64,000 nt of DNA from Eggerthella lenta DSM 2243 (GTDB lineage Bacteria; Actinomycetota; Coriobacteriia; Coriobacteriales; Eggerthellaceae), in contig NC_013204.1 in NCBI RefSeq assembly GCF_000024265.1, positions 1,786,180 through 1,850,179 on the forward strand, written 5' to 3'. The first letter of the stretch is position 1, and the number at the start of each line of letters is the position of its first letter. The position numbers were made by a program, and so were the translations under genes. The notes below the pieces were generated by a model that saw nothing but the letters and a program-made list of their open reading frames with translations, did no database searches and was not told the origin of the DNA. Shown here in pieces: positions 6,947-57,839 of the stretch.

Positions 6947-6982
6947 GGGCGGCCGCCTCAAACCCAACCGTTGCGGCCGCCC
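6947..6982 (+). promoter_or_regulatory. 10-bp perfect hairpin in the leader of the VirB2-like gene
   Basis: GGGCGGCCGC pairs with GCGGCCGCCC across a 16-nt loop, 27 bp before the next ATG. There is no T-run, so it may be a processing or stability element that lets the abundant pilin-like subunit be made in excess over VirD4. A wider GGGACGGCG/CGCCGTCCC pair (6823-6831 with 6890-6898) lies just upstream. Confidence 0.45.
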
Positions 6983-7009
6983 ACAAGCAAGACATGCAAA
7001 GGAGCCAAG

Positions 7010-7225
7010 ATGCTCTCAAACATCATCGGACTCGTCTCCGGCTGCGTCACGTTCCTAGGGGGTTTCTTAATCGTCTGGGGCGCGGTGTCGCTCGGCCTCG
7101 CCATCCGAGAGCAGCAGGGAGGCGCTCAGATCGCCAGCGCGATCTCGACCATCGCTGGCGGGGCGATCATAATCGCCGCCGCCATCTACTTCGGCCAGCT
7201 CGACACGTCCTGGCTCCCCGCCTAA
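7010..7225 (+). CDS. Small two-membrane-segment protein, VirB2/Maff2-like
   Basis: A 71-residue hydrophobic protein with AAAGGAG before the ATG at 7010. Two membrane helices (~7-30 and ~43-62) are separated by a polar loop with EQQGG. Size, topology and position directly before PrgI and VirB4 genes match the Maff2/VirB2-like proteins of Gram-positive ICEs, which are thought to be pilin-like channel subunits. Sequence similarity to VirB2 itself is too weak to see by eye, so the role rests on context. Confidence 0.6.
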   Translation: MLSNIIGLVSGCVTFLGGFLIVWGAVSLGLAIREQQGGAQIASAISTIAGGAIIIAAAIYFGQLDTSWLPA

Positions 7226-49442: not shown

Positions 49443-49458
49443 TGTTTCACGTGAAACA
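49443..49458. promoter_or_regulatory. parS site 1
   Basis: TGTTTCACGTGAAACA, identical to the chromosomal ParB-binding consensus known from Bacillus and Streptomyces. Perfect 16-bp palindrome in an intergenic gap. Confidence 0.9.
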
Positions 49459-53357: not shown

Positions 53358-53429
53358 CGAGCGAAGCCGCGATTCGCCGGGGGACGCGGTCGGCCGAAGA
53401 TCTTCCGCCGACGCAGCCCTCCGTACAGA

Positions 53430-53445
53430 TGTTTCACGTGAAATA
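53430..53445. promoter_or_regulatory. parS site 2 (one mismatch)
   Basis: TGTTTCACGTGAAATA, 15 of 16 positions of the consensus. Lies in the 269-bp gap before the double-glycine peptide gene; nothing else recognised in that gap. Confidence 0.8.
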
Positions 53446-53626
53446 TCTGTTCGGACAAGCTCCTTCGCCTTCGGCTGTAATGGTTTGCGGGTTGTCTTTC
53501 GTTGCGCGAGAGCGGTCGTTTGTTCGTCGAGGCTTGACCGCTTCGGAAGCGCGCGTTCACACTGGTCGCAAGGCTTTGCGCTTTTGCCGCGGCCGGGACG
53601 CATACCCTCGAACCAAAGGATCAAAC

Positions 53627-53920
53627 ATGGAGACCATCGAAGAATTGTTCCGGAAGGTGTTGGACGACGAAGACCTGAGGGCTTCGTTCGGGCAGGCGCT
53701 GGAGGGCGACCGCTTGGAGGTTTTCCTTCGGGAAAACGGCTGCGAGGCTGCTCCTTCCGAGGTGCGGGAGGCCTTGGAGGGCATGTTCAGGGAAGAGCTG
53801 GGCGACGAGCTTCTGGATGAAGTGAACGGCGGAATGGCCAAATATCGTCTGTATCTCCACGAACCCTTTCTTAAAACTACAAGTGCCGCGTCGCAGAAGA
53901 TCAAGATCATCAAGGGTTAG
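53627..53920 (+). CDS. Double-glycine leader peptide precursor (Nif11-like type)
   Basis: A 97-residue precursor. AAAGGA before the ATG. Leader residues 1-69 have the Nif11-like pattern (FRKVLDDEDLRASFGQALEGDRLEVFLRENG, then ELGDELLDEVNGG) ending in GG at 68-69. The predicted core (70-97) begins MAKYRLYL, ends KIKIIKG, is basic and has no Cys. No modification enzyme, C39 protease-transporter or immunity gene is adjacent, so maturation would rely on genes elsewhere. Confidence 0.7.
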   Translation: METIEELFRKVLDDEDLRASFGQALEGDRLEVFLRENGCEAAPSEVREALEGMFREELGDELLDEVNGGMAKYRLYLHEPFLKTTSAASQKIKIIKG

Positions 53921-54067
53921 CGGCTTTTCTTCTGCATCTCGCGGACGAAGTCGGCCGTTCGGCCGACTTCGCGGATCCTTCGCCACCGACGGCTTCCGCC
54001 CGCAATTTCGTACAAGCGGCTCGGTGCGGTTCGTGGTATCGTCTCCTGCTTGGACGAAAGGTTTTGG

Positions 54068-56256: not shown

Positions 56257-56272
56257 TGTTTCACGTGAAACA
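56257..56272. promoter_or_regulatory. parS site 3
   Basis: Perfect TGTTTCACGTGAAACA in the 400-bp gap between the EamA and SRAP genes (55956-56355). No gene or other element was recognised in that gap. Confidence 0.9.
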
Positions 56273-57823: not shown

Positions 57824-57839
57824 TGTTTCACGTGAAACA
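57824..57839. promoter_or_regulatory. parS site 4
   Basis: Perfect TGTTTCACGTGAAACA between csoR and copA, 43 bp before the copA start. Confidence 0.9.

Follow-up and report, generated by a model that had tools for sequence, protein, structure and literature searches.

The window, the whole stretch of 64,000 nucleotides analysed here, occupies positions 1786180-1850179 of the single 3,632,260-bp contig of Eggerthella lenta DSM 2243. It contains a gene for a precursor peptide consisting of an acidic leader and a short core (Table 1), as the sequence-only reading had recognised. The 69-residue leader closes with a double glycine at residues 68-69, preceded by Val at -4, Leu at -7 and Leu at -12, in the pattern L....L..V.GG (final letters LGDELLDEVNGG). 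The core, MAKYRLYLHEPFLKTTSAASQKIKIIKG, was rightly described as basic and Cys-free: its 28 residues include five Lys, one Arg, one His and one Glu, with zero Cys. GC content per codon position is 0.63/0.34/0.72, which is coding-like. Compared to the leader, the core is lower in GC (0.45 vs 0.61) and in GC3 (0.57 vs 0.78), and five measured precursor genes of the distal cluster described below have a GC3 of 0.71-0.76. An AlphaFold model built on an alignment of two sequences, with a mean pLDDT of 63.8, depicts the leader as helical, with a pLDDT of about 80 over its first 50 residues, and gives the core a pLDDT below 50. The hairpin behind the gene has an MFE of -37.5 kcal/mol over 83 folded nucleotides (z -2.84), and a terminator scan of this region found none.

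Table 1. Features at the precursor locus, in window coordinates.
Feature	Coordinates	Strand	Basis
Segment containing the gene	53360..53989	+	Three congeners with the same flanks have about 100-180 bp here
Operator, direct repeat CGTT (53500) and TGTT (53521), 21 bp apart	53497..53536	+	Cluster-trained model
Proposed promoter, TTGACC (53534-53539), 18-bp spacer, CACACT (53558-53563)	53534..53563	+	Gapless alignment with cluster promoters
Ribosome-binding site, AAAGGA	53615..53620	+	Sequence
Precursor peptide ORF, 97 aa plus stop	53627..53920	+	Ribosome-binding site, coding GC pattern, leader homology
Leader, residues 1-69	53627..53833	+	Homology searches; predicted helical
Core, residues 70-97, basic, Cys-free	53834..53917	+	Sequence; pLDDT under 50
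Strong hairpin 3' of the gene, possible transcript end	53946..53971	+	Folding; without a T tail

A chance reading frame is ruled out by the leader homology, the coding GC pattern and the operator held in common with the distal cluster. We also considered a frameshifted Cys-rich core; inspected by eye, one of the two alternative frames beyond the GG yields a single Cys and then an arginine-rich stretch and the other a short tail without Cys, and neither is convincing. Pfam returned nothing over cut-off for the peptide, the sole match being RPN2_N (E 0.16), and a fold search with the model returned two PDB matches, both with E above 8. The top match of a profile search against PDB sequences is a Nif11-domain chain (E 0.09). 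Searched alone against the collected loci, the core finds nothing beyond chance (best non-self E 1.3). Rfam matches to CsrC (E 0.004, inside the ORF) and PyrR209 (0.066) lie under the gathering scores and are taken as chance. A mobile or phage origin was likewise rejected, with no relatives in IMG/VR (eight pattern matches, zero confirmed), plasmids, phages or PHROGs.

The neighbouring genes encode a P-type ATPase, HMA and ArsR-type proteins, a 4Fe-4S protein, an AraC regulator, an EamA transporter, an SRAP protein, a metal-sensing repressor and a second P-type ATPase with HMA domains. The nine ORFs around the gene are unrelated to peptide modification or export. The earlier statement that modification and C39 genes are missing nearby is borne out. 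All 25 radical SAM matches (E<=0.001) and all three C39 matches (E<=10) in the genome lie outside the window, and Pfam names no YcaO cyclodehydratase among nine ORFs at 49.6-60.5 kb. Genome-wide, PF05147 (LANC_like) gives zero matches at E<=1, in a LanM/LanC test that consists of PF05147 only and has its control over cut-off in one of 14 genomes. In three congeners the same flanks enclose about 100-180 bp, compared to about 630 in the window, and the gene segment is absent. One of the three contains a C39 domain, located in a cluster with a LanM-like protein (the latter assigned by eye), which makes joint occurrence of the lone gene and an exporter uninformative. The low-GC3 cluster of congener G054 (L092, 6488-13072) comprises a C39 exporter, an oxidoreductase-like protein, a 1001-aa LanM-like protein and a GG precursor with a Thr/Ser-rich, Cys-free core; functions besides C39 were assigned by eye. 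Four copies of a palindrome, TGTTTCACGTGAAACA, one of them in the form TGTTTCACGTGAAATA, are found at 49443-49458, 53430-53445, 56257-56272 and 57824-57839 of the window. It has zero occurrences in 100 shuffles, it also lies between the same genes in the congeners, and we take it to resemble a ParB site.

The leader aligns with TIGR03798, the Nif11 leader model, over model positions 3-68 of 68, and its residues 1-69 score 17.1 bits against a curated cut-off of 32.3 bits. The label Nif11-type, given by the sequence-only reading, thus stands as kinship over nearly the full span of the model, but not as a family assignment at the curated score. Among 138 family genomes, the window peptide finds a match at E<=0.01 in three, its own genome counted; the match in genome G116 has 39% identity and E 1.4e-8, and a related leader in G128 carries an internal TAG. 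A two-row profile of the window and G116 sequences matches in 14 of 396 class genomes at E<=0.001, again with the own genome counted, at E values down to 3.9e-28. When the five strongest other loci (E 3.9e-28 to 5.4e-22) are viewed over about 1.5 kb on each side, four show LanM or LanC pieces and the remaining one stops at a contig end. Outside the own genome, a LanM/LanC piece (E<=1e-4) lies beside 12 of 26 profile loci. Both G273 and G308 have a 99-aa precursor whose core is Cys-rich, immediately followed by a 900-aa ORF matching LanM. Leader identity between the window and G273, G308 and G116 is 36-38%.

A tree of 21 chosen leaders groups the window leader with five LanM-linked-type leaders (95/96), while the three TIGR03798 leaders of its own genome's cluster form another set (99/99). 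Three further leaders near LanM pieces lie outside the 95/96 set. The window row has a branch of 1.74, compared to a median of 0.25, and the placement of so long a row is unsure. In blastp, the window leader matches one of the three cluster TIGR03798 leaders, with 28% identity over 25 residues at E 4.3. By these sequence comparisons, the window leader is closest to leaders encoded next to LanM synthetases in other Coriobacteriia. Searches of other genomes gave no orthologue of the whole peptide. A search of GTDB contigs for the window protein, by a method that reaches close relatives only, gave no confirmed relative. Two own-genome matches are taken as chance: a weak one of the peptide to a 781-codon frame at 2792015 (E 0.425), and a partial one of TIGR03798 at 1129747 (E 1.07). 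Given a core without Cys and a genome with no LANC_like match at E<=1, lanthionines in the core are unlikely, and a lanthipeptide identity for the product was rejected.

Several related loci show features of their own. In G116 (L014, 208-5779), the LanM behind the precursor is divided into three separate ORFs with part of DUF4135 gone, possibly by assembly error, and a reverse transcriptase gene is located near the split LanM. In G398 (L065, 1443-1932; L091, about 6951-7190 for the leader), a LanM-type leader continues in frame into the end of a LanC-like protein in a deletion-like arrangement. Elsewhere in the Eggerthellaceae, several genera encode many short peptides of the form KACKTPEE..LAKEEGYELSDEELEAVSGG with short cores (e.g. 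L022, L025-L038), and TIGR03798 has 17 matches in G112 and 27 in G117.

The sequence-only reading had proposed searching the genome for a GG-peptidase and would have been refuted by finding none; one C39 domain over cut-off is present, at 3423750 (E 4.7e-35), within an ABC exporter 1.58 Mb from the window gene. Queried without its N terminus, this exporter scores 816.7 bits against TIGR03796 (cut-off 853.3). Its reading frame carries Cys, His and Asp residues that we take to be those of the C39 type, with the corresponding roles. The surrounding 19-kb stretch (L013) encodes a radical SAM protein and another ABC protein, which reaches 720 bits with TIGR03797 (cut-off 709.4); an HlyD-type match there is weak, at 30.3 bits against a cut-off of 156.2. 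The stretch also encodes three TIGR03798 precursors, 121, 122 and 130 aa long, and more GG-type peptides. Most of the cores contain Cys. The three precursors found by TIGR03798 carry Leu -12, Leu -7, Val -4 and GG like the window leader; the other peptides were picked by a rule requiring nearly the same leader end and are hence no test of the pattern. This mechanical rule (an RBS-like stretch, an acidic leader, L....[LI]..x.[GA]G and a short core) returns only the window ORF in the 64-kb window, eight peptides in L013, one in L105 and none in L107, and misses at least two peptides spotted by eye. Very short GG leaders with CxxC-type tails, unlike the other cluster peptides, occur in L013 at 2965 (+) and 4769 (-) and in L107 near 2520 (+). 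Between the cluster genes lies a 290-aa regulator with a LytTR domain (PF04397, E 5.1e-9), for which the close-relative search of GTDB contigs gave no confirmed relative. A second LytTR regulator (PF04397, E 2e-14), which also has SnoaL-type matches, all under their cut-offs, is encoded beside another operator site. As scanned, neither regulator has a receiver domain by Pfam.

A 30-bp match between the region upstream of the window gene and the cluster led to a common promoter element. It consists of TTCGTT, then GGTC(G/T)TT(C/T)GTTCG, and has two (C/T)GTT cores 21 bp apart, located just upstream of the -35 position and at a fixed distance from it. The cluster has four copies: one ahead of p5 and the radical SAM gene, one ahead of p4, where the left core reads CGTG, one ahead of the small peptide opening the C39 operon, and one ahead of a sixth precursor. 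In all nine compared sites, a -10-like hexamer with three to six letters of TATAAT follows 16-18 bp past the -35 position. The window hexamer has three of the six letters and is the poorest, tied with that of the C39 operon; a strict sigma-70 scan upstream of the window gene returned no promoter. With a weight matrix derived from the four cluster promoters, the window site scores 28.1 and the next non-training position 6.0, among 202,566 positions on both strands of seven own-genome stretches (about 102 kb).

A 43-nt model (R1), trained on the four cluster promoters only and run on the whole 3.63-Mb genome, recovers those four and finds the window site (1839676) at E 3.1e-5, in register with the cluster promoters; it is the weakest site below 1e-4. 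The other non-training sites are 3412937 (E 6.4e-7), 3413060 (1.5e-4) and 3490866 (0.013), with the remainder above 0.1. In 12 loci of other genomes (113,893 bases, LanM clusters and congener flanks included), R1 gives nothing at E<=1. The new sites lie ahead of genes for a SpoIIE phosphatase, which adjoins an HATPase protein gene, for a small peptide with an AG-ending leader, and for a GG peptide behind the second LytTR regulator. A weak site at 3491329 (R1 E 0.16) precedes a CAAX-type protease. A second model (R2), whose nine training sites include the window and protease sites and which is therefore no independent test of the window site, adds 3426229, upstream of the first regulator, at E 0.0017; the next position is 80612 at 0.08. 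Nine of the ten R2 sites below 0.05 fall inside a 78-kb region (3412937-3491365), and the exception is the window site. Taken together, the R2 and TIGR03798 genome scans place the sole remote operator and the sole remote leader-spanning match to the Nif11 model at one and the same gene. The sequence-only reading called this gene an orphan; it does stand alone in the window, but the label is misleading, as the operator at its promoter makes it look like a remote regulon member. The SpoIIE-type phosphatase and HATPase protein (L105, 3280-5913) and the CAAX-type protease (L107, 2942-3781) lie behind peptide-type operators, weak in the case of the protease, an arrangement that suggests a partner-switch and an immunity arm of the regulon.

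On the evidence of operator and leader, we think it reasonably likely that the window gene is a stand-alone double-glycine precursor that belongs, through its promoter, to a LytTR regulon centred 1.58 Mb away, and it is probably run and exported by the distant cluster. Most likely, a lanthipeptide-type precursor was recruited into this LytTR-controlled regulon and is cleaved and exported in trans. Its joint switching with the cluster and its cutting and export by the C39 protein are inferred by analogy with the pln regulon. A LytTR protein would bind the direct repeat at 53497-53526 and activate the window promoter jointly with the promoters of the cluster precursors and the exporter operon, whereupon the 97-aa precursor would be produced. 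The sole C39 exporter would recognise L....L..V.GG of the helical leader, cut after Gly69 and release the 28-aa basic core outside the cell, where it may act as a bacteriocin-like or signalling peptide free of lanthionines. The leader itself would trace back to precursors of the LanM type, and the search of its own genome did not find their synthetase. Maturation by a distant transporter, as suggested from the sequence alone, thus gains support from the one C39 protein 1.58 Mb away and the cluster operator at the window gene. We tentatively extend this to regulon precursors of mixed descent, in which a lanthipeptide-lineage leader, minus its synthetase, acquired a new Cys-free core and an operator at a distant site, giving an unmodified secreted peptide that is possibly the inducer of the system; we put this forward as a speculation with some chance of being right.

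Several sequence features count against membership in the regulon: the leader differs in type from those of the cluster, its branch is as long as might be expected of a decaying gene, the core has no relatives among the collected loci, the whole peptide was not found in the other genomes searched, and the site is the weakest below 1e-4 with a poor -10. The main rival explanation is a relic of a lost lanthipeptide operon, in which LanM was deleted, the leader survived and the core is a functionless, chance in-frame tail. The LanM linkage of the nearest leaders, a genome without a LANC_like domain, the long tree branch, the lower GC and GC3 of the core and the lack of the segment in three congeners agree with such a history, and breakage is seen in relatives, with the split LanM of G116, the stop in the leader of G128 and the leader-LanC fusion of G398. 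However, the window ORF has kept its ribosome-binding site, coding GC pattern and GG motif, and the operator is present in the C39 cluster and was not found in the LanM loci examined. A relic of a LanM operon would have no reason to own a promoter of the C39 regulon, which outweighs this explanation and leaves it unlikely.

The core may be unmodified, as the sequence-only reading proposed. Modification in trans before export, by the radical SAM enzyme of the cluster or another radical SAM protein of the genome, would be in keeping with an operator common to the p5/radical SAM transcription unit, and, in the part of the literature available to us, precursors of this class are recorded as lying far from the genes for their modification and export (PMC2887384). 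The window leader is nonetheless unlike the TIGR03798 leaders of the cluster, as the blastp comparison indicates, and its core lacks the Cys that most cluster cores contain; we regard modification as improbable. A product that never leaves the cell, with the leader-like protein occupying the exporter or regulating the system, would fit an operator shared with the exporter operon and the long leader predicted to be helical, but it sits poorly with a GG motif that is intact and has a short basic core behind it, and we give it very little credence. Recruitment into the LytTR regulon, with export of the core, remains our preferred explanation. An apparently stranded precursor thereby becomes a testable regulon member in a human gut bacterium. 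Operators can tie RiPP precursors to exporters where gene neighbourhood fails, and the outcome includes a list of co-controlled peptides, several of them under the usual family cut-off. The accessible portions of the literature on Eggerthella and on this regulator type describe neither the regulon nor the window peptide.

In the available text, Haft et al. (2010) place E. lenta DSM 2243 among the genomes with N11P beside ABC transport clusters, and note precursors of these families distant from modification and export genes (PMC2887384). Like the N11P (TIGR03798) systems with NHLM exporters TIGR03796/03797, the window gene has a GG leader of about 70 residues, a C39 exporter in its genome and possible distance from enzymes; unlike them, its leader falls under the TIGR03798 cut-off, the gene is alone and the core is Cys-free. 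For E. lenta VPI 0255, Elen_2949, Elen_2953 and Elen_2954 are listed at 121, 122 and 130 aa in the part of the source available (PMC4289311). Judged by these precursor lengths, their cluster is the distal cluster, with the same operator as the window gene. These three have Cys-containing cores and lie beside radical SAM and C39 genes, and the window peptide differs on both counts. Class II lanthipeptide precursors with LanM in Coriobacteriia (G273, G308, G116) have a leader homologous to that of the window, followed by Cys-rich cores directly before LanM, whereas the window core has no Cys and its genome no LANC_like domain.

The pln regulon of Lactobacillus plantarum is the closest comparison for control. 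There, according to the accessible text, the LytTR regulators PlnC and PlnD bind tandem repeats just upstream of the -35/-10 region, and the several operons of the locus serve double-glycine peptides, transport and regulation and encode CAAX proteases (PMC2714321). As in pln, a tandem repeat lies upstream of a promoter type common to peptide and exporter operons, with a LytTR regulator encoded alongside. Unlike pln, where the repeat is of the TTCGTT type, the E. lenta repeat is TACGTTAAT, the LytTR regulators have no receiver domain by Pfam, and one member lies 1.58 Mb from the others.
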